A stretch of 40,158 nucleotides of DNA from NCBI GenBank assembly GCA_945871005.1, contig CAMBUJ010000009.1, positions 1 to 40,158 of the forward strand, given 5' to 3'. Below are positions 2 to 10,682 of the stretch, in pieces. How positions within the stretch are numbered: the stretch's first letter is position 1; each line of letters starts with the position of its first letter. A model generated the notes under the pieces. It was not told the DNA's origin, did not search any database, and worked only from the letters and a program-made list of their open reading frames with translations. The position numbers were made by a program, and so were the translations under genes. Source of the stretch: Opitutus sp. GAS368. Its GTDB lineage: Bacteria; Verrucomicrobiota; Verrucomicrobiia; Opitutales; Opitutaceae.

Positions 2-916
2 GTCCTTAGCACCGGAGTGACTGCGCCCGATGAATTGGCCAAACATACGCTCGCGTTGTTAGAAACGCGCTTGAGCACAGTCAGTCGGGTGGCACCTGCA
101 TTTGCGCTGGCGCTTCGTGCCTACCGTGAAGCCCAAGTCAAAGGCGACAATGCGCTGTGCGATGGCCTAATCGCCTGGCTCGGGGGGCAGCCCAATATCG
201 CGGCGGAAATCAAACGGGCCGCCAGTTTGAAGGGTGACGTAGATCACTTCGCTGCCCTCGGATTCACTCAAGGACTTCTGACGGTGCTACGGGACTCCGG
301 CCGCCCTGGCTTGGTGCTGGTGCTTGATGAAGTGGAGACACTCCAACGGGTGAGAAGCGATGTGCGGGAGAAAGCGCTCAATGCGCTGCGCCAATTGATC
401 GACGAAGTAGATGCCGGACGATTCCCCGGACTTTACCTGCTGATCACTGGCACTCCGGCCTTTTTCGATGGAGCACAAGGCATCCAACGCCTGCCTCCGC
501 TGGCGCAACGGCTCCACGTAGACTTTTCGGTCGACGCCCGCTTCGACAATCCCCGAGCGCCGCAACTCCGCCTTCGCGCCTTTGATCAAGCGCTACTCCA
601 GGAGATCGGTCTGCGAGTTCGCTCCATTTACACCCAGAACGCGACTACGGCGGACCGGATCGATCGACTCGCGAATGACGCAGTGCTTTCACGTCTCGCG
701 GACACACTGTGTGGTCAACTGGGTGGTAAAGTAGGCGTGGCCCCACGGCTCTACTTGAAAAAGTTGGTCGCCGAGGTGCTCGACCGCATTGATCAATTCC
801 CCGATTTCGACCCGGCGCGTGACTACCAGTTCACACTCCAAAAACAGGAGATGACCACGACTGAACAAGCTGCGGCCGGGTATTCCTCGGTGGACGATAT
901 TCCCCTGGAGACGTGA
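2..916 (+). CDS. brxD: BREX system ATP-binding protein BrxD-like (5' truncated by window edge)
   Basis: Frame is open to the window edge (VLSTGVTAPDEL...). Contains 'GLVLVLDEVETLQRVR' (Walker B-like) and '...GLYLLITGTPAFFDG', and is followed directly by a BrxHI-like helicase as in BREX type 2/6 loci. The Walker A region would lie upstream of the window. Confidence 0.75.
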   Translation, partial: VLSTGVTAPDELAKHTLALLETRLSTVSRVAPAFALALRAYREAQVKGDNALCDGLIAWLGGQPNIAAEIKRAASLKGDVDHFAALGFTQGLLTVLRDSGRPGLVLVLDEVETLQRVRSDVREKALNALRQLIDEVDAGRFPGLYLLITGTPAFFDGAQGIQRLPPLAQRLHVDFSVDARFDNPRAPQLRLRAFDQALLQEIGLRVRSIYTQNATTADRIDRLANDAVLSRLADTLCGQLGGKVGVAPRLYLKKLVAEVLDRIDQFPDFDPARDYQFTLQKQEMTTTEQAAAGYSSVDDIPLET

Positions 917-3000
917 GCCCGTTTGAGCGACTCCATCCCATCGTCCAGCACCATGTGGTAAACACACTTGGATGGAGGGAGCTGCGACCACTCCAAGAGG
1001 AGAGTATCGCCCCGGTCATGGACGGTGCGCACGCGCTTCTGTTGGCACCTACCGCCGGGGGGAAGACGGAGGCCGCCTTTTTGCCGCTGCTTTCTCGTAT
1101 GACCAGCGAAAGCTGGAAGCCGCTTTCGGTTATCTACGTTTGCCCACTTAAGGCGCTGCTCAACAACCTGCACTCCCGCTTGGAGCGCTACTGCGCGTGG
1201 GCCGGGAGAACCTGCGCAGTTTGGCACGGGGACGTCCTTACGGCACAACGCAACCGGGTGTTGAAAGAGCTGCCGGATTGCCTGCTCACCACCCCCGAAT
1301 CGCTCGAAGCGATGCTGATCTCCACCCGCGTGGAGCATCGCAATGTCTTCGCCAATGTGAGGGTCGTGGTTATCGACGAACTGCATGCGTTCGCAGGGGA
1401 CGACCGGGGATGGCACCTGCTCGCCGTGCTGGAGAGGATTACCCGACTGGCGGGTCATGAGATTCAGCGCATTGGGTTATCAGCCACCGTGGGGAATCCG
1501 CAGGGACTGCTCGATTGGATGTCAGGTCACTGCGAAGGCCGCCGTGAACTCGTGGTGATCCGGCCGCCCGCAAATGCCCCCCAGCCAGAAGTGCAGGTGG
1601 ACTTTGTGGGCCGCATCGAAAATGCCGCCCGTGTGATTGCGGCCCTGCACGCGGGTCAAAAACGCCTCGTGTTTTGCGACTCGCGCAACCGCGTGGAGCA
1701 ACTCGCTCTTCACCTGCGGGCGGCCGGGATCGAAACCTATGTCTCCCATAGTTCATTAAGCGCAGATGAGCGAGGAAGGGCGGAGCTAGCCTTTGCCGAG
1801 GGCGGGAGCTGCGTGATTGTCGCTACCAGCACGCTGGAACTTGGCATCGACGTGGGCGACCTCGACCGCGTGATCCAGATAGACTCGCCGTCCACGGTGG
1901 CCTCGTTTCTCCAGCGCATTGGTCGCACGGGACGTAGACCCGGAACCTCACGCAACTGCCTATTCCTGGCACTGACGGAGGAATCGCTGCGCCAGAGTGT
2001 TTCCCTCGTGCGTCTGTGGCAGACGGGCTACGTCGAGCCGGTGCAACCGCCTCCACATCCGGTGCACCTGTTCACGCAGCAACTCATCGCGTTATTGCTT
2101 CAGGAGCGTGCGCTACCGAAGCACGACTGGCGGGAGTGGATCGGACGCCTGCCTCCATTTAAAGAGATCCCCGAGGATTCGTTAAACGCGATCCTGCGGC
2201 ACCTGGTGGCGCAGGGCTACATCCATGAAGATCAGGATATGTGGATGATTGGACCGTTGGCGGAATCGGAGCTAGGACGCCGTCATTTCTCGGACCTGGT
2301 TTCCGTTTTCACGTCGCCGCCGCTGTTCGAGGTCTGGAATGGCCGACAACATGTCGGGAACGTCGAGGAAACCGCGCTCCAGCGTGAGGCCGACCAGCCC
2401 GCTATCATCTCACTCGGCGGACGAGCCTGGAAGGTGACGAATATTGACTGGAAAAAGCGCCGACTCGAAGTGGTGCCCGAACCCGGTGCCGCCAAAACAC
2501 GCTGGCTAGGCACGGCCCGGTCGCTGCGCTACGAGCTATGTCAAATGACCTTAAGCGTGCTGAGTACGGACGAGGACTACGCCTTTTTATCAAAGCGTGC
2601 ACGCACCAGCCTTGAAGCGGCGCGCAACGAATACGCCTGGGTAAGGCTGACGTCCCCATTACTACGGGTTCGTGAGAACAAGGTTATCGAGTGGTGGACG
2701 TTTGCCGGTCGCAGCGTGAACCAGTGGGTTTGCGATGTAGCGAGGGAGCACCTGTCCGTTCACGCCACAGGTGATGATCTGCGAGTGCGCTTCGAAGCCG
2801 GAATGGAGCGGGTTGAGGAGATGATCGCATTGATCCAAAAGCAGTCGGCCGCTACACCCACCGGTGAATCATTCGTCGCCAAGTTCTCAGACCTGCTCCC
2901 GGACAAGGAGCTGGCAGGCTTGATCAAATGCCGAGCGTATCGAGCCAGCGACGTGGGGCAGTTTGTCGATAAGCTCCGGGCAGTTAAGATCGAAAAATAG
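913..3000 (+). CDS. brxHI: BREX Lhr-family DEAD/DEAH helicase BrxHI-like
   Basis: 695 aa; Walker A 'LAPTAGGKTEAAFLPLL', 'VVIDELHAF' (DExH), 'IGLSATVGNP' (motif III), 'QRIGRTGRRPG' (motif VI). GTG start overlaps the upstream stop (GTGA). Confidence 0.82.
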   Translation: MSPFERLHPIVQHHVVNTLGWRELRPLQEESIAPVMDGAHALLLAPTAGGKTEAAFLPLLSRMTSESWKPLSVIYVCPLKALLNNLHSRLERYCAWAGRTCAVWHGDVLTAQRNRVLKELPDCLLTTPESLEAMLISTRVEHRNVFANVRVVVIDELHAFAGDDRGWHLLAVLERITRLAGHEIQRIGLSATVGNPQGLLDWMSGHCEGRRELVVIRPPANAPQPEVQVDFVGRIENAARVIAALHAGQKRLVFCDSRNRVEQLALHLRAAGIETYVSHSSLSADERGRAELAFAEGGSCVIVATSTLELGIDVGDLDRVIQIDSPSTVASFLQRIGRTGRRPGTSRNCLFLALTEESLRQSVSLVRLWQTGYVEPVQPPPHPVHLFTQQLIALLLQERALPKHDWREWIGRLPPFKEIPEDSLNAILRHLVAQGYIHEDQDMWMIGPLAESELGRRHFSDLVSVFTSPPLFEVWNGRQHVGNVEETALQREADQPAIISLGGRAWKVTNIDWKKRRLEVVPEPGAAKTRWLGTARSLRYELCQMTLSVLSTDEDYAFLSKRARTSLEAARNEYAWVRLTSPLLRVRENKVIEWWTFAGRSVNQWVCDVAREHLSVHATGDDLRVRFEAGMERVEEMIALIQKQSAATPTGESFVAKFSDLLPDKELAGLIKCRAYRASDVGQFVDKLRAVKIEK

Positions 3001-3022
3001 AGGGGTGACCTGCATACAGCCG

Positions 3023-3151
3023 TCAAGCAGGGCGGATTTTATGAGTAACAGGCAACCTGACGTTGTCCCTCAAAAGGCCGCTTCGACGGGTTGCGATGGC
3101 GGAATCAAAATCGATGAGGACATAAGTGGGTACAGTTGCGAGGGGCTTACC
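3023..3151 (-). pseudogene. 3' remnant of a calcineurin-like metallophosphoesterase (copy 1)
   Basis: Minus-strand translation GKPLATVPTYVLIDFDSAIATRRSGLLRDNVRLPVTHKIRPA* aligns with the C-terminus of the intact gene at 5921-6631 (GDNPLATVPKHVLIDLKAGEAILKSGHMVDRVTL). No upstream catalytic part is present. Confidence 0.7.
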
Positions 3152-3531
3152 TCGAACGCGACCTACTCACCAAAGGCGATCCAGTACAGGCGCGGGCCGA
3201 TTTGACCGCTGCCTTTGTCGCCGCCAACCCAACCACGAAAACCTACTACCAAATCGCGGCGGAAACCTATGCGGCTAAATTACTCGCTGATGCAGGTAAT
3301 ACGGGTGGGACGGTTAATCCCCCAGTTACAGATACTGGAACCACGCCAACGGGCACGATCGGGTCTGCAACCAATCCTTATACATCCATGGCGGCGCTCG
3401 TGCAAAATGCTGGGACCGCATCCTCCACTACTCTAGGCCAAACGGCCTATGTTGGGACCACAAAGTATAAAGTAACTCGACACAGTGGCGGACAAGGAAC
3501 GGCGTCCTACTCATGGGACCCTATCCCATAA
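3136..3531 (+). CDS. Hypothetical protein, possibly a C-terminal fragment of a larger secreted or surface protein
   Basis: 131-aa ORF; Thr/Gly/Ala-rich linker then 'YTSMAALVQNAGTASSTTLGQTAYVGTTKYKVTRHSGGQGTASYSWDPIP'. Its 5' end overlaps the metallophosphoesterase remnant, so the start is doubtful. Confidence 0.4.
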   Translation: MRGAYLERDLLTKGDPVQARADLTAAFVAANPTTKTYYQIAAETYAAKLLADAGNTGGTVNPPVTDTGTTPTGTIGSATNPYTSMAALVQNAGTASSTTLGQTAYVGTTKYKVTRHSGGQGTASYSWDPIP

Positions 3532-3538
3532 ATCAATA

Positions 3539-3568
3539 AAAAGGCCCACCGTTAAAGGTGGGCCTTTT
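3539..3568. terminator. Bidirectional intrinsic terminator
   Basis: AAAAGGCCCACC-GTTAAA-GGTGGGCCTTTT perfect 12-bp stem with A/T flanks, between convergent ORFs 3136-3531(+) and 3590-4234(-). Confidence 0.85.
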
Positions 3569-3589
3569 GCTTTCGCAGTAACCGAAACC

Positions 3590-4234
3590 TTACCAAGAGT
3601 AACCAACGCTCAAGGCAAAACTAGGACGAGTAGCCCCATCAAAGGCAAAGGTGTCAGTACCGCTATGGGTGACATAGGTATTACTCTCGACCTTAAGCAA
3701 CTGAGCGGAAGCTGAAACATCCCATCCCTTACCTAGATCAGCCTTAACCCCAACGGTGCCACCGAAAGCCAATTTCCACTTTGAGGCACTGTCTGTGCCA
3801 TACTGAGCAGGATTACCACCACCACCCAAATCATTAACAGTACTGGTGTAAGTCTCGCGAATGAACCCGACAGTAGGGCCTGCAAACACCGTATATTTCG
3901 CGGCCTTATCCAAGCTGTAATTAAAGCGATAATTCAGCAATACAGGGATCTGTTTGGACTCAGCAAGAAAATCGGAAATACCAACCTCTACATTTTTCTT
4001 ACCCTCGAACTTGGTGTAACCCGTGGAAATACTGACCTCGTGAACCTTGTCGATGAGGACGCCAGCGGTGAGACCAGGCCCAACCTCGTAACCCTTGGGT
4101 GCGAAAGTCTCCTTGTAGCCGGTATTGGTGTAGGCGATTTCAGCGCGCAGGATAGGAGTCACGCGGGATTGAGCCTGAGCAGAGGCGATGCCGGTGAGGG
4201 CAGTTACGGTCGCGATGGCGATTAGGTATCTCAT
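3590..4234 (-). CDS. Outer-membrane beta-barrel (OmpA-like/porin-family) protein
   Basis: 214 aa; Sec signal 'MRYLIAIATVTALTGIASAQA', alternating amphipathic strands, C-terminal aromatic 'PSFALSVGYSW'. Confidence 0.75.
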   Translation of the reverse strand: MRYLIAIATVTALTGIASAQAQSRVTPILRAEIAYTNTGYKETFAPKGYEVGPGLTAGVLIDKVHEVSISTGYTKFEGKKNVEVGISDFLAESKQIPVLLNYRFNYSLDKAAKYTVFAGPTVGFIRETYTSTVNDLGGGGNPAQYGTDSASKWKLAFGGTVGVKADLGKGWDVSASAQLLKVESNTYVTHSGTDTFAFDGATRPSFALSVGYSW

Positions 4235-4341
4235 AGAGGGATTAGGTTGGTTAGCTGGATTTATCCTGATTCGAAACGTGTAAGTGCTACGAAAGTGTGC
4301 CCGTGGGGCACCTTTTAGCAGGGCAATCTGCTTAACTCACT

Positions 4342-4608
4342 GTGCTCTGCGAGCACATTTTGGAACGGGAACAGCCTCATTCTCCCCGCAATTTAATCGG
4401 CGCGTCACTTCGAACGATTCGCCAGAGAGCGCGTCCACGTATTTCTCAGGAGGACCTTTGCGGTAGAGTCGCACGCTACGGAGTTATTTTGACCCGCACG
4501 CAAATCGCAAAAATTGAGGCCGTTAAACGCCCGGTTTTCGACTACGAGCTGAACGCATTTGCAAAAGCCCTAAACGTGGAGATCGAGGAGTTGATTCACG
4601 CCAGCTGA
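4342..4608 (+). CDS. XRE-family helix-turn-helix regulator
   Basis: 88 aa; 'LRTIRQRARPRISQEDLCGRVARYGVILTRTQIAKIEAVKRPVFDYELNAFAKALNVEIEELI' HTH_3-like. Exact start uncertain. Confidence 0.7.
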   Translation: MLCEHILEREQPHSPRNLIGASLRTIRQRARPRISQEDLCGRVARYGVILTRTQIAKIEAVKRPVFDYELNAFAKALNVEIEELIHAS

Positions 4609-4645
4609 GCGGAAGCCTCCAGTAATTGGTGGCCTGCTACAGCAT

Positions 4646-4774
4646 TCAAGCAGGGCGGATTTTATGAGTACCGGTTAACTTGACGCGATCCACCAAATGA
4701 CCGCTTCGCCGGGTTGCGGTGGCGGTATCAAAATCAATTAGGACATGAGTGGGTACAGTCGCATGGGGCTTACC
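4646..4774 (-). pseudogene. 3' remnant of a calcineurin-like metallophosphoesterase (copy 2)
   Basis: Minus-strand translation GKPHATVPTHVLIDFDTATATRRSGHLVDRVKLTGTHKIRPA*; gap-free alignment with copy 1 and similar to the C-terminus of the 5921-6631 product. Confidence 0.72.
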
Positions 4775-4804
4775 TGCGCATATTGAGCATTGGGCGGACT
4801 AGAG

Positions 4805-5902
4805 TTACTGCGTGTGTCGATGGTATTCGACCCAGCGACGGAAATAGGGGTTATCAAAAACAACGCCTCGTTCGCCTCGAACCAAGATTTGGCTTTTTAC
4901 CAAGTGTTTGATCGCGGTCGTGGCTGTCGACGCCGCGTTGATCCCAAACTTACGGAGGGCTGCCGCAGATGCAGGCCGAAGCCCGCCTGCGATGGCTCGT
5001 AACATGGCCCGTTGGGTTGCCAGTAGCGGACGCCATTGGTGCGTAAACGCCGAATCCAACTCCACGAGGGCGATCGCATCAAGCGCCCTGGCAACCACCT
5101 GGTCTGGCTCATGAATGCCGGCTCGCGTGAGATCGAAAACCGTCTTGGCGAGGCGGATTACATCTCCTTCACACGGTCCGGCGATTTTCACAATATCTTC
5201 GGCGTTGGAAAATTCCGTGACTCCACCCAACTTCGCCCGAGCTTCAATCCACTGGACTACAACATGGACTGGGCGTGGGCCGACCTCCACGAATTGGAGT
5301 TGCTTGAAAAAGGCGGCCGTCGGCGCAGTCATCACTTCCACGATGTGCTGCGGGCCGACGAAGATGTAGTTGAGGTTACGGTGCCCCTGCATGGCTCCGC
5401 GTAACCTCCATTCGATACGATCACCTCCTAGGGCCAGGACTTCTTGAAATTCATCCAAGCAGATTGTCCACACCTCGCCCCTTTCCGCTGCTTGATCGTT
5501 GAGGAGGCTGAGCGAGCCTTCCAAGGTCTGGCCGCCTTCATCCTGCCTTAACGCGCTTCCGATGAATACCCTACCGGCAGCCACCCCCGCATTAGGGAAG
5601 TAGTTAGCCGCCATCGCCACGGTACGCGACAGGTGCTCATCGGTCACCTCAGGGGCAGAGGCGAGAAGTTTTTTAGCGACCTCATTGAGATCAGCAGCCT
5701 TAGAAATATCACAGTACAGAAATGCCTGTTGAGCTTTCCGTCCGGCGAATTGAACAAGCGAGGTTTTCCCCATGCGCCGTCGGCCGAAAACGAGCAATCG
5801 GCGACTCGATTCGCCCATTAACTGGATAATCTTAGCCGCAAGGGCCTCGTGGCCGTCTAAGCACGTATCATCCGCAGTATAAGTGAATGGATTCGCGGTC
5901 AT
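4805..5902 (-). CDS. P-loop ATPase (ATPase_2 / archaeal-type AAA ATPase)
   Basis: 365 aa; Walker A 'FGRRRMGKTSLVQF', Walker B 'WTICLDEFQEVLAL', sensor-like 'NYIFVGPQ', C-terminal winged-helix-like 'AALRKFGINAASTATTAIKHLVKSQILVRGERGVVFDNPYFRRWVEYH'. Confidence 0.78.
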   Translation of the reverse strand: MTANPFTYTADDTCLDGHEALAAKIIQLMGESSRRLLVFGRRRMGKTSLVQFAGRKAQQAFLYCDISKAADLNEVAKKLLASAPEVTDEHLSRTVAMAANYFPNAGVAAGRVFIGSALRQDEGGQTLEGSLSLLNDQAAERGEVWTICLDEFQEVLALGGDRIEWRLRGAMQGHRNLNYIFVGPQHIVEVMTAPTAAFFKQLQFVEVGPRPVHVVVQWIEARAKLGGVTEFSNAEDIVKIAGPCEGDVIRLAKTVFDLTRAGIHEPDQVVARALDAIALVELDSAFTHQWRPLLATQRAMLRAIAGGLRPASAAALRKFGINAASTATTAIKHLVKSQILVRGERGVVFDNPYFRRWVEYHRHTQ

Positions 5903-5920
5903 CGGTCTGGCGCTATAATT

Positions 5921-6631
5921 TCAGCCGACTTGATTACGCAAAGTAACCCTATCCACCATATGGCCGCTTTTCAGAATAGCCTCGCCAGCCTTTAAATCAA
6001 TCAGGACGTGCTTCGGCACGGTTGCCAGCGGATTATCTCCGGCGGCATTGAGACAGATCGCCCGTCCACACTTCGCCTGCCATTTCGTCGCCGTATGGAC
6101 GTGCCCACTGAGCACCAGTTTAGCCCGAGCACCCCAGGCAGGCGAAAGTGCGGCAAATAAGTCATCACTACCAAAGTCGATCGGTTGCCCACCGTCGTCG
6201 GAGCGCCCCAAGCCACACTCGCTCGGTGGCGCGTGGTGCAGCCAGACATCGGCCTCAACCACGTTAGGTCGCAAAAAGTCCACGGCTTCACTGCCCCACG
6301 GTAAACAGGCGATCGTCCAGTCGCCGAAAACGCCAACTCCGCCATCGACCGTCACGCCTGGCCGTGCGAGCGCCCGCAGCCAGTCGGCATTGTCATCAAG
6401 GACGATGTCATGATTGCCGCTACACAAGAAAAGGGGGAAATCGATGGCGCGCACCCAGGTGCCGATCCAATCGATTTGCCGCTTCAATGCACTGCTGGCT
6501 TGCTGGGCATCGGCGTCGACCAAATCACCCGAAATGGCCACGGCGCAGCCCGTTGCTCTGGCCTGCTTGGCGACCCAATAAAACCAGGTTTTATTACCGT
6601 GCAGATCGGAGAGGTGGAGTAGTTGGCTCAT
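5921..6631 (-). CDS. Calcineurin-like metallophosphoesterase (MPE-B)
   Basis: 236 aa; metal-site motifs 'SDLHG', 'ISGDLVDAD', 'CSGNHDIV', 'WLHHAPP', 'LSGHVHTATKW'. Confidence 0.85.
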   Translation of the reverse strand: MSQLLHLSDLHGNKTWFYWVAKQARATGCAVAISGDLVDADAQQASSALKRQIDWIGTWVRAIDFPLFLCSGNHDIVLDDNADWLRALARPGVTVDGGVGVFGDWTIACLPWGSEAVDFLRPNVVEADVWLHHAPPSECGLGRSDDGGQPIDFGSDDLFAALSPAWGARAKLVLSGHVHTATKWQAKCGRAICLNAAGDNPLATVPKHVLIDLKAGEAILKSGHMVDRVTLRNQVG

Positions 6632-6864
6632 TCAGAGTAAGTCGGAAAATCAGTGCTGTGAAGAGTAAGGAGGGGGAACAAGTACGGGTGCTTTCGTTGG
6701 GGTGGCGGACCAACAGAGATAGGTGGTTTCGCGCTCTAAAGCCCCCTGGCGCTTGGTCGGTCAGGGGCGAAGGTGGTTTTGCCGAGTTGCTAAGTTGAGT
6801 GGGGGCAGGTGCCTCATCCATGGTTACGGTTTTGGTTATGGGCCGGGCATCGCTCATAATGGCC

Positions 6865-7407
6865 TCATTGCCCCTGCTGCCAGGCCTCGATGAATAGCCT
6901 CTGTTGGTCGTTCTCCGGGGTGGGGCGGAACGCCTCAATTTTGTCGCCGATGAGCGCGTGCATCTGGGCCACGGCCTGCGTCGGCGTGGCCAAACCATGA
7001 CGCACCAGCCAGCAGCAGACTACAGTACCGGTTCGGCCCCGACCGCCCCAACAGTGAACGAAGCCCACGCCGCCACGTTGCAGGGTGGCGTCGATGTCAT
7101 CGAGGATGGACTGCACTACGTCTGGAGTGGTGGTGGAGCCATCCACGATCGAATATCTGCGTCCCTCCACGCTCCGCCCCATCGCGGCGGCAGTTAATTT
7201 AGCATGCGACAGGTAATCGTAAAACGGAACCCCGTCGTGGTTGGTTTCCGTGGTGTACATCAGGTTAATGATGTCGGTGACTCCGACATCGAGCAGCGCC
7301 TGGATTTTCGCTTCGGAGGATTCACTGGTTCTGCCGGCCGGGTAGGCACCAGCCAAAAGCTTGCCGGGCACGACCCAGTAACTGCGTTGGTAAGGAGCGG
7401 GTTTCAT
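6865..7407 (-). CDS. Dual-specificity / protein-tyrosine-type phosphatase
   Basis: 180 aa; CX5R signature 'VHCWGGRGRTGTVVCCWLV'; upstream 'LLDVGVTDIINL' typical of DSP/PTP folds. Confidence 0.82.
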   Translation of the reverse strand: MKPAPYQRSYWVVPGKLLAGAYPAGRTSESSEAKIQALLDVGVTDIINLMYTTETNHDGVPFYDYLSHAKLTAAAMGRSVEGRRYSIVDGSTTTPDVVQSILDDIDATLQRGGVGFVHCWGGRGRTGTVVCCWLVRHGLATPTQAVAQMHALIGDKIEAFRPTPENDQQRLFIEAWQQGQ

Positions 7408-7479
7408 GATTATATTATGCTTTATGGTGCGATTGATGGAAAATCATTTGGGCGCTACGTGACTTCATACTACCGTGCT

Positions 7480-8190
7480 TTAATCCTTGTGGTTAATTGG
7501 CTTGAAGTACGCGGATTCGGTTCGGTTTTCGTCGGGGCAATGCCATTCAGCTCGGCCCGTTTGGGTATCAATAATGATGTGCTGAGGAATCTTAGCGGTC
7601 AGGTCGCAACCTGGGTTGAGGCAGAGACTATCGCCGATATGTGCATGCCACTTCTTGGGTTCATGCACATGGCCACAGAGCACCAGTCGTGGCTTGTGCG
7701 CCCAGATCGCATCGCTGACTTCGGGGTCACCGTCGTCACGCAGCGAGTTCGGGGAAACAGCCAATACGGTTCCTGCGGGCGGGGCGTGGACCACCACGAT
7801 GTCTGTGGCCGAGGGCCAAGTCCAAGGCACTGCTGCTCTGCCGCACCACGGCACCACCCCTATTGACAGTGGTCCCGACCAAAGTTGTTCGTCCACAATC
7901 AGGCCGGGGCGACTCAGTTCCCGTAGCCAAGCGCCACTGCGCGTTTGTGTACCCGTGCGGAGATCGGGCAAAACATCGTGGTTGCCCGAACACACAAGAA
8001 GCGGGCGTTTGGGCGAGCAGGGAAACGCCGCCAACTGTGCGCTCCACCGCTCGACCTGGGCAGGGGTTTTATCGAACTGATTAAGCATGTCACCCGCCAG
8101 GGCAATTGCATCATAATTAGCCGCTTGTGAGGAAAGCCAAGTGAACCAATCCAAGCGAAAGTGGAAATCCGCGACGTGGAGGATTTTCAT
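7480..8190 (-). CDS. Calcineurin-like metallophosphoesterase (MPE-A)
   Basis: 236 aa; 'VADFHFRLDWF', 'ALAGDMLNQ', 'CSGNHDVL', 'VVHAPP', 'LCGHVHEPKKW'; paralogous to the 5921-6631 product. Confidence 0.85.
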   Translation of the reverse strand: MKILHVADFHFRLDWFTWLSSQAANYDAIALAGDMLNQFDKTPAQVERWSAQLAAFPCSPKRPLLVCSGNHDVLPDLRTGTQTRSGAWLRELSRPGLIVDEQLWSGPLSIGVVPWCGRAAVPWTWPSATDIVVVHAPPAGTVLAVSPNSLRDDGDPEVSDAIWAHKPRLVLCGHVHEPKKWHAHIGDSLCLNPGCDLTAKIPQHIIIDTQTGRAEWHCPDENRTESAYFKPINHKD

Positions 8191-8201
8191 GGAGGCGTTA
8201 C

Positions 8202-8435
8202 TTATTGGTCGAGCAGCACCTGCAGTTTTAGGCGAAGGGGTTCACGTTCTGCACGGCCGTCGATCGACGAATAGGCGAGGTATTCGAGGAGGATTGATTT
8301 TAACTCCGCTGCTCGCCTGCCGGCGCTCATGAGAATCGCATCGCGCTCGGCCCCGTCTCCAGCGGCACGTAAGATCGCTTCAATTTCGGCCCGCACCGCA
8401 GGTGGTTGCTGGGCAAATAGTTCATTTTTGATCAT
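8202..8435 (-). CDS. Small hypothetical protein, first ORF of the phosphatase/ATPase cluster
   Basis: 77 aa, helix-rich, Ala/Glu/Leu composition; ends 11 bp before the MPE-A start in the same orientation. Confidence 0.6.
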   Translation of the reverse strand: MIKNELFAQQPPAVRAEIEAILRAAGDGAERDAILMSAGRRAAELKSILLEYLAYSSIDGRAEREPLRLKLQVLLDQ

Positions 8436-8723
8436 GGGTGTGTACTCTAGGTATTTTGGGGTTCGGCACTTCGTTCGTTCTTTTCAGTATAGCACGCGAT
8501 TGGTCGCATTTTTAAGATTTCTGACGGTTCGCGAATTTGGCGCTGGGGCCTTAGCTCCATCTCTAGTTTTGGGTGGTTCGGTAAGCGCTGCGAGACGCTC
8601 AAATAATGCCTAGCAGCGTTGGTAGAAGTTATGAGAACCGGCCTGGCTGGCTCGAAACCATTGCCCATTTCCCCCCGTCTCTAGCTACCTGCCATTCCCC
8701 CGATGGCATGAGGGCAATCCGGC

Positions 8724-8760
8724 CATTACGTAAAATGGCGCTACGTTACTTAACGTAATG
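8724..8760. promoter_or_regulatory. Inverted repeat upstream of the phosphatase cluster
   Basis: CATTACGT (8724-8731) and ACGTAATG (8753-8760), perfect 8-bp arms, in the long non-coding region 8436-9164. Confidence 0.4.
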
Positions 8761-9164
8761 GGTGGGTGGGCGGATCCAAGTGGACTGCCTCAGTTCTAAC
8801 TTTCTACCCACTTCTAGCTACGTCTATCTGAAATCGAGTATAACTGAGTATAAGCTGCTATAATTTCACAAGCCACTGTTTAGTAATAGTTAATATCCAC
8901 TTGTGGATCCATCGAGCAGATATCGAGGCACACTCGACTGGGCCTGTTCAGGGCGTTTTTCCGTATCAAGGAGATGCGGACATGGACGACCGCCCGCCGA
9001 TTGGTGGATTGAGAATTCTGCCGCACCTGCGCGCCGTGGAGGCTAATGGCAGCCAGAATAAGACGATAGTTGCCACCCCTTACGGTATTTCGCCGGTTTA
9101 TCCATGGCCGCCAGCTAGGTATCTGCTATGGATGGAGTGCGTTCAGTCGGGGGTCGAACTACGA

Positions 9165-9557
9165 CTAGAGCCTACCCTTAAATCGACCGGCAGAAGAAAT
9201 CGATTCGATACTCTCACCCTCAGGGAAATCAAATATTACCAATGGTTTAAGCCTCATGTCGGTCTTCTGATGGATTTCCGCCATCGAAATCTTAACCTGC
9301 CACTTATAAAAATTATCCATGAGTTCGTTTTCCGAAACATTAACCGATCCATCGGAGAGGACTTGATTTTTCAAGGTACGGTGAAGAACCACTCCAAGCA
9401 TAAAAATCCCCCACAAGTAAGAGGAGGGACTGCCATCGTCTTTGTTGTGCGTCCAATGGCGAATAAACCGTTCAGGCAAATCATGTGTCGTCACATTTGG
9501 ATTCGTTTTGATCCACTCTAGGCTTTCTTTAAAAAATAACGGTTCAGGATTTTTCAT
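9165..9557 (-). CDS. Hypothetical protein
   Basis: 130 aa with balanced composition; start lies 95 bp from a divergent XRE gene. Preferred over the overlapping plus-strand ORF 8901-9521. Confidence 0.5.
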   Translation of the reverse strand: MKNPEPLFFKESLEWIKTNPNVTTHDLPERFIRHWTHNKDDGSPSSYLWGIFMLGVVLHRTLKNQVLSDGSVNVSENELMDNFYKWQVKISMAEIHQKTDMRLKPLVIFDFPEGESIESISSAGRFKGRL

Positions 9558-9601
9558 GCCGAAAATGTACGACTGAAAACGCTAAAAAGCACAAGGTAAA
9601 A

Positions 9602-9617
9602 ACCATCTATAGATGGT
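9602..9617. promoter_or_regulatory. Perfect 16-bp palindrome, candidate operator
   Basis: ACCATCTATAGATGGT, self-complementary over all 16 bases, in the intergenic space of the divergent pair 9165-9557(-) / 9653-9883(+). Confidence 0.6.
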
Positions 9618-9652
9618 GTCGAGTCTGGGTGATTGTCGGTAGAATGCAAGGG

Positions 9653-9883
9653 ATGCCCAGTGAATTCAGCCTGTTACCCAAACAATTGGGACGTACCGTT
9701 CGACAACTCCGTGTTGAGGCAGGGCTGAGCCAGCAGGTATTGGCTGAAAAAGCCAATTTGGCACTCAATTTCGTGGGTGAAATCGAGCGAGGAGAGAAAA
9801 ATGCCTCGCTGGAAACCACGCTACGTTTGGCCCGCGCACTAGGACTTTCAGGGGCCGAGCTATTGCAGCGTGTTGGGGTGTGA
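9653..9883 (+). CDS. XRE-family transcriptional regulator
   Basis: MPSEFSLLPKQLGRTVRQLRVEAGLSQQVLAEKANLALNFVGEIERGEKNASLETTLRLARALGLSGAELLQRVGV; canonical HTH_3. Start at the internal ATG 9653 preferred over 9629. Confidence 0.85.
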   Translation: MPSEFSLLPKQLGRTVRQLRVEAGLSQQVLAEKANLALNFVGEIERGEKNASLETTLRLARALGLSGAELLQRVGV

Positions 9884-10682
9884 CGTCATTTGGCCGCTAA
9901 GAGCGGTCAAGCCTTCTCCGCCCGCGCTGCAATGAATCGAGGCGTTTCTTTCAGACGGCCAGCCGATGAAGACCTGTAAAAACAGGAATTTGGAAAACCC
10001 AAGTCTGCGCCATGATCACCTTCGAACCGCCGTTACTCAAATTACGCTTTCGAATTCAACCGATCGATTTTTCCTAGGGCACGATCAATCGACACTTCAT
10101 CCGAATTCTTCGGAAATTCGCCAGCCGCAGGCCGATGGACCATTTAAAACGAGTGGTCAGTGTGGCATGAAATTAATGGATCAGCTTTTACCGCTAAGGT
10201 AACCGGATTGATTCCTGCAAAATCGACACTGTAACCGCAGAGGAAATACATTAGCCGGCTCTTTTTCGGAAAGGGAAATGCGGGGGACCGAAGCATTGCC
10301 CACGGTATTTTCCGCTAGGGGCGGCGAATTGCTTCCATTTCTCCGTTATAGAAAAGAATATGCTTCCTGCCGTATTTTTCTCATGCGCCTTACCTATGGA
10401 GCGACTTTTCGAGATCGGGAGTGGAATTGATTCCGCAGAGCGTGGGAAATAGGTACAAACGACAAACCTGCGGTTAGGTTGCCAGTTGACGTGGCAACCA
10501 GCACCGAGGCCAAGTCTGGCCCCGTTTCGTTTCCAGGGCATGCCCGTTGCGTTCCTGCTGCGCCTGGCCGCCCGCCTGCGTGATGACCCGGTGCGCTATT
10601 ACCCGACCTCGACGAAGTTCCCCGCGCTTACCTCGACTGCCAGTGCCCCTTCCTGCTCGAGACTCTCGTCGAGGCCGGCGCC

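Follow-up and report, generated by a model that had tools for sequence, protein, structure and literature searches.

Five open reading frames (ORFs) lie in series on the minus strand at 4.8 to 8.4 kb of contig CAMBUJ010000009.1 of Opitutus sp. GAS368 (assembly GCA_945871005.1), positions 1 to 40,158 of which make up the 40,158-nucleotide window analyzed here. From 5′ to 3′ they encode a 77-amino-acid (77-aa) protein, a calcineurin-like metallophosphoesterase (MPE-B), a dual-specificity phosphatase (DSP), a second metallophosphoesterase (MPE-A) that is 33% identical to MPE-B, and a P-loop ATPase, with gaps of 11, 72, 233, and 18 bp between them (Table 1). All five ORFs are intact and, upon re-reading, the series and its spacing were exactly as described in the initial annotation, which had proposed a single five-gene defense system in which the ATPase acts as the sensor or regulator and the phosphatases act as effectors or signal erasers.

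A second copy of four of these genes was discovered in the same genome. The 77-aa gene (G000:C135:958-1188) and the MPE-B gene lie at the start of contig C135, while the DSP and MPE-A genes lie at the end of contig C2; because the two ends have 119 identical bases in common, the contigs very probably join. Read from 5′ to 3′, copy 2 comprises a helix-turn-helix (HTH)/130-aa gene pair like that flanking the cluster in the window, 77 aa, MPE-B, a 69-aa membrane protein (TM69), DSP, an intact 83-aa ORF, a 133-aa (HTH) protein, a 155-aa protein, a repeated intergenic block, and MPE-A. There is no ATPase gene in this copy. Identity to the window is 75% for the 77-aa protein, 91% for MPE-B, 93% for DSP, and 82% for MPE-A, and the ratios of nonsynonymous to synonymous substitution rates (dN/dS) between the copies are 0.21, 0.18, 0.10, and 0.21, respectively. 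Judged by these ratios, the four shared genes are real, constrained, and functional, and not chance ORFs.

Synonymous divergence (dS) between the copies differs from gene to gene (0.71 for 77 aa, 0.30 for MPE-B, 0.38 for DSP, and 0.58 for MPE-A, with that of the flanking HTH/130-aa pair exceeding 2), so either the histories of these pieces differ or partial homogenization has taken place. Homology to copy 2 is confined to three blocks of the window (8513-7477, 7407-6766, and 6690-5993), whose breaks fall at or near gene ends, one block starting exactly at the DSP start codon and another ending at the MPE-B stop. The unequal dS values and the interruption of homology at or near gene ends together argue that the cluster is a mosaic. 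Inside the 233-bp gap between DSP and MPE-A, homology is interrupted from 6766 to 6690; the gap is made up of a truncated beginning of the 83-aa ORF, complete in copy 2, fused to sequence from upstream of MPE-A, and on this alignment it is a recombination scar. We conclude that the 4.8- to 8.4-kb region is probably a recombinational mosaic within a horizontally acquired defense/toxin-antitoxin (TA) island, rather than one five-component machine. An integron cassette array was also considered, as breaks at gene ends would fit it; no attC-like site was recognized by eye, with no attC model applied, and no integrase gene was found near the cluster in the window or in copy 2, and the idea was rejected.

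Table 1. Features of the cluster region in window coordinates (feature, position, strand, annotation or evidence)
77-aa ORF	8202..8435	-	first gene of 77 aa-MPE-B cassette; helical protein
MPE-B, calcineurin-like metallophosphoesterase	7480..8190	-	Pfam Metallophos 4.9e-11; catalytic motifs intact
DSP/PTP-like phosphatase, HCx5R	6865..7407	-	Pfam PF22784 (PTP-SAK) 8.8e-17, PF22785 (Tc-R-P) 5.5e-13
Recombination scar, truncated 5′ part of 83-aa small ORF	6632..6858	-	alignment to copy 2
MPE-A, MPE-B paralogue	5921..6631	-	Pfam Metallophos 4e-8; catalytic motifs intact
P-loop ATPase	4805..5902	-	GRRRMGKTSL, DEFQ; weak AAA_14/AAA_22/AAA_16 Pfam matches
Decayed 3′ end of MPE-A-like gene	4676..4822	-	tblastn E 1.2e-7, 47%; direct repeat D1
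Second decayed 3′ end of MPE-A-like gene, adjoining BREX 3′ end	3053..3148	-	tblastn E 4e-4, 50%; direct repeat D1
Intergenic repeat block preceding 77 aa	8682..8979	-	copy 2 has related blocks before both 77 aa and MPE-A
Promoter-like TTAAAA-18-TATACT, TG before -10, upstream of 77 aa	8486..8515	-	sequence pattern, weak
130-aa protein, no confident family	9165..9557	-	counterpart before 77 aa in copy 2 (49% identity)
HTH protein of HipB/Y4mF type, paired divergently with 130-aa gene	9629..9883	+	also in copy 2
BrxD	17..916	+	7.3e-129
BrxHI helicase	913..3000	+	3.4e-282

The bacteriophage exclusion (BREX) system reported at the start of the window is represented by its 3′ end only (BrxD and BrxHI), the remainder lying off the contig, and none of the five cluster genes matched any BREX model. 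The GC content of the cluster stretch beside BrxD and BrxHI is 49 to 60%, compared to 65% elsewhere on the contig; the island genes have an atypical codon score (Mann-Whitney p ~1e-6) and a GC content at third codon positions (GC3) of 0.47 to 0.72 against a host median of 0.82. The low GC content and atypical codon use argue that this stretch is accessory DNA. The decayed paralogues of the initial annotation were recovered as two C-terminal fragments of MPE-A-like genes, 83% identical to each other at the DNA level over 138 nt. The promoter-like site upstream of the 77-aa gene sits in DNA common to copy 2, where homology reaches 8513, although the pattern is weak, with 3 such sites found and 2.6 expected by chance. 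The repeated intergenic block (window 8682-8979; L024, 1353-1564; L110, 10961-11131; L111, about 5228-5301) is AT rich with TTATA motifs and contains an inverted TTACGTT/AACGTAA repeat; it may be an operator or a recombination site.

In a search of 189 related genomes, including that of Opitutus sp. GAS368, eight relatives of the ATPase were found at an E value of ≤1e-20 in seven other genomes, six of them 42 to 48% identical. The full-length relatives are solitary among unrelated genes, and none is beside an MPE, DSP, or 77-aa gene; one distant relative (24%) is on a plasmid. Gene content thus indicates that the ATPase is independent of the phosphatase genes, and its proposed role as the sensor of a system is not supported, given the same evidence and its absence from copy 2. 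The protein has a weak sequence match to PDB 2fna (E 0.01) and resembles the stand-alone P-loop/STAND-type ATPases of this kind in its Walker A (GxRRxGKTSL) and Walker B (DEFQ) motifs and in a predicted C-terminal winged helix; its sequence places it with these ATPases, and genes of the window type are uncoupled from phosphoesterases elsewhere. Both in the window (3590-5902) and in L018 (G007:C57), an ATPase gene of this type has two others in its vicinity, one for an outer membrane protein (OMP) beta-barrel and a divergent one for an HTH protein, and the order differs between the two genomes.

The domain calls and the GNHD and CX5R motifs of the initial annotation were borne out for both MPEs and for DSP by Pfam matches and intact catalytic residues. 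MPE-A and MPE-B belong to the Metallophos superfamily by their motifs and by Pfam scores over the cutoff: DxH, GD, GNHD, HxPP, and GHxH are all intact, and across 43 sequences including both proteins the metal-binding motifs DxH, GD, GNH[DE], H, and GHxH are invariant or nearly so. MPE-B has no direct sequence match in the PDB. For both proteins the best PADLOC match is PDC-S10, a single-gene metallophosphoesterase that is a candidate only, with modest scores (1.6e-12 for MPE-B and 4.6e-7 for MPE-A), and no paper describing PDC-S10 was found in the literature searched.

A tree of 43 distinct subfamily members contains a branch of nine that spans families and classes, nearly all beside a gene recognized by its sequence, with no profile search, as encoding a cyclic-nucleotide-binding domain, and a branch of eight beside Rnk and aldo/keto-reductase genes. 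These two branches look vertically inherited. The paralogue linked to the cyclic-nucleotide-binding-domain gene (L072 and L187-L193), conserved across families and classes, is a candidate cyclic nucleotide phosphodiesterase. MPE-A and MPE-B lie outside both, in branches with variable neighbors, here referred to as island branches, of which the subfamily has several. HipAB and MNT/HepT genes adjoin island-branch MPEs, whose 140 scanned neighbors included HipA (5), HepT (3), nucleotidyltransferase (NTP_transf_2; 3), phage integrase (4), resolvase (2), and relaxase, as well as DrmA, DrmD, and DrmMI of the defense island system associated with restriction-modification (DISARM), HerA, and a type ISP restriction-modification enzyme. 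The 112 neighbors of the vertical branches, used as the control, gave essentially protein-kinase-type matches, each in one member, among the 25 commonest families listed with PADLOC; both neighbor sets were picked after inspection of the tree. At one locus (L070, G066:C5:39000-50000, 1577-5628), the type ISP restriction-modification and MPE genes share a four-base overlap, and another (L062, G033:C10:1-6500) has the series AAA+-protein kinase-vWA-PP2C-MPE, which resembles a kinase/vWA/phosphatase (TerY-P-like) triad with an added MPE. A pattern-limited search of viral contigs found no MPE or ATPase relative, and plasmids yielded no MPE relative; given these searches, spread by viruses or plasmids was rejected.

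The catalytic residues of DSP are conserved (D89 and H118-C119-x5-R125). Same-phylum relatives with 38 to 39% identity sit in Nudix-DSP-ADP-ribosylglycohydrolase (ARG) operons (L194 and L195), in one case with KptA nearby (KptA named from Pfam, Nudix and ARG by sequence recognition), and at L108 a single protein combines ARG with a further relative. ARG systems of this sort, which include phosphatases of the rhodanese superfamily and in some cases calcineurin phosphatases, have been predicted to be antiviral de-ADP-ribosylation systems (Iyer et al. 2022, PMC9503650). The window resembles them in that its DSP is of the same family, as shown by these operons and the fusion, and in that those systems are stated to have calcineurin phosphoesterases as an alternative partner. 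In contrast to them, it has no macro domain or chaperone, and no gene for ARG, their defining component, and none for Nudix or a WYL transcription factor was found among the proteins scanned from 1 to 10 kb, where the only regulators are of the HTH_31/HipB type; the cluster is thus not a member of the ARG-centered systems. Calcineurin phosphoesterases are also the commonest variable effector in DO-GTPase conflict systems (Kaur et al. 2020, PMC7159879). The cluster has in common with the NTP-dependent conflict systems (MoxR-vWA and DO-GTPase) mosaic operons and calcineurin-type phosphoesterases as exchanged effectors, and a plasmid relative of DSP, found in a WYL-ATPase-SIR2-DUF4804-DSP-...-MoxR-VWA operon, adjoins MoxR and VWA genes; unlike them, the window has no MoxR, vWA, or GTPase core. 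The suggestion that the phosphatases may be effectors or signal erasers agrees with the published reading of such domains. A genome-wide DSP scan of GTDB contigs gave three poor, distant matches only, the single-sequence patterns having been too strict. Elsewhere (L109, G002:C2:927000-940000, 3115-10427), a truncated DSP gene is flanked on both sides by a 497-aa ORF; the two ORFs, identical and in inverted orientation, are probably transposases of a composite element.

The 77-aa protein belongs to no Pfam, NCBIfam, PADLOC, or PHROG family above the cutoff, and in 141 genomes its only clear homologue was in its own genome, with none in the 140 others. Its predicted structure is all helical (predicted local distance difference test [pLDDT] score, 80) and matches no fold in the PDB and no known antitoxin fold. 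Its linkage with MPE-B is kept in both copies.

Relatives of the phosphatases recur with another set of genes. A ClpX-like AAA+ protein adjoins an MPE in G033, G104, G133, and G090 (the MPE of G090 is a partial ORF). Within four genes of its 16 loci in the 189 genomes, calcineurin-type genes occur at 7, DSP at one, and PP2C at one. Under random placement of calcineurin genes the chance of this association would be ~3e-8; because the query was picked for its position next to an MPE, and because one genome contributes two of the seven loci as copies, the association is only suggestive. At the phylum level the AAA+ protein was found in 1 of 185 genomes, so the family is narrow. Two further families, c26 (about 200 aa) and p184 (about 190 aa), have no Pfam or PADLOC match, and the c26 model, of moderate quality (pLDDT, 74), has no fold match in the PDB. 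They join an MPE at L154, L058, and L067 and a DSP on contig C23 of the Opitutus sp. GAS368 genome and in G012, often with a small tyrosine recombinase, and DSP and MPE take equivalent places beside them (L106 versus L154). This recurrent set of c26, p184, MPE, DSP, AAA+, and recombinase genes (L154, L153, L058, L067, L105, L106, L139, L140, and L051) is a possible undescribed modular defense cluster. It is conceivable, if rather doubtful, that the island MPE subfamily is the recurrent effector of undescribed tyrosine-recombinase-associated modular defense clusters (AAA+, c26, p184, DSP, and MPE/PPP), of which the window would be a degenerate branch with a dedicated 77-aa partner.

How much of the cluster functions together can be weighed against these data. 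A system of all five genes, in which the ATPase would be the sensor and the phosphatases the effectors or erasers, would draw on the common strand and the 18-bp gap between MPE-A and the ATPase gene, but gene content has already largely refuted it: copy 2 has foreign genes in its gaps and no ATPase, the relatives of the ATPase are solitary, and a scar and pseudogene tails mark the junctions. We therefore reject it as highly improbable. No other locus examined has the set of five genes whose co-occurrence had been anticipated, and independent occurrence, which the initial annotation named as evidence against a system, applies to the ATPase fully and to the other four in part. Of the proposed defense-island module, the accessory setting stands (low GC content, BREX, paralogue remnants, and relatives beside TA, restriction-modification, DISARM, and recombinase genes), while the five-gene module does not. 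Two observations do weigh against the mosaic reading. In G014 the decayed C terminus of a distant ATPase adjoins an MPE, one weak MPE-ATPase association, and the 77 aa-MPE-B-DSP-MPE-A order is kept in both copies with the genes co-directional, such that the four could be one functional unit. A cooperating four-gene system, for example in sequential phosphoester cleanup or signal erasing with the ATPase as a bystander, would account for that identical order, for purifying selection on all four genes, and for the equivalent places of DSP and MPE beside c26/p184. It would also fit G121, the only further genome with MPE-DSP adjacency among the loci examined, where an MPE of the same subfamily comes directly after DSP, with a second, PPP-like phosphoesterase following. 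However, both copies are in one genome and hence not independent, foreign genes interrupt the order in copy 2, the 77-aa protein has no clear relative elsewhere, and most MPE relatives have no DSP neighbor, all of which makes such a system unlikely.

A smaller unit is somewhat easier to accept. The 77-aa protein and MPE-B might be a TA-like pair with three unrelated neighbors, an explanation that is compatible with the mosaic reading and to which we give a minority weight. Their 11-bp spacing, the promoter-like site in the shared upstream DNA, their joint presence in both copies, and the frequency of island MPEs among TA genes are consistent with a pair, but most other island MPEs have no 77-aa partner, nor does the 77-aa protein have a known antitoxin fold. 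Ordinary metabolic or signaling phosphatases that came by chance to lie in an accessory region would be suggested by the two vertical-looking MPE branches with their cyclic-nucleotide-binding-domain or Rnk and aldo/keto-reductase neighbors; this is quite improbable, because neither MPE-A nor MPE-B belongs to those branches and both lie in low-GC island DNA, together with BREX and the remnants of paralogues.

Most likely, then, the mosaic carries phosphoesterases that act as effectors or signal erasers in a defense island and have been exchanged independently of one another. The exchange units would be the promoter with 77 aa and MPE-B, DSP with its small ORF (truncated here), MPE-A, and the solitary P-loop ATPase, which would act separately. 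MPE-A and MPE-B are predicted to be metal-dependent phosphoesterases, most likely acting on nucleotidyl or RNA-end phosphoesters in an effector or messenger-erasing role, with the 77-aa helical protein as the best candidate for a regulator or inhibitor dedicated to MPE-B. DSP would be a cysteine phosphatase whose probable substrates are phosphorylated ADP-ribose/nucleotide products or phosphoproteins, in line with what has been proposed for related enzymes of ADP-ribose conflict systems. Taken by themselves, these biochemical assignments are tentative.

An apparent new operon can thus be a mosaic, and here comparison with copy 2, from the same genome, told the real units apart. What holds interest after the fall of the five-gene system is the island MPE subfamily, recurrent in defense islands with undescribed partners. 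If the island MPEs are effectors, they would add a phosphoesterase class to the defense islands of this lineage, with the 77-aa protein, AAA+, c26, and p184 as testable partners, and would link an ADP-ribose DSP with calcineurin phosphoesterases outside ARG operons.

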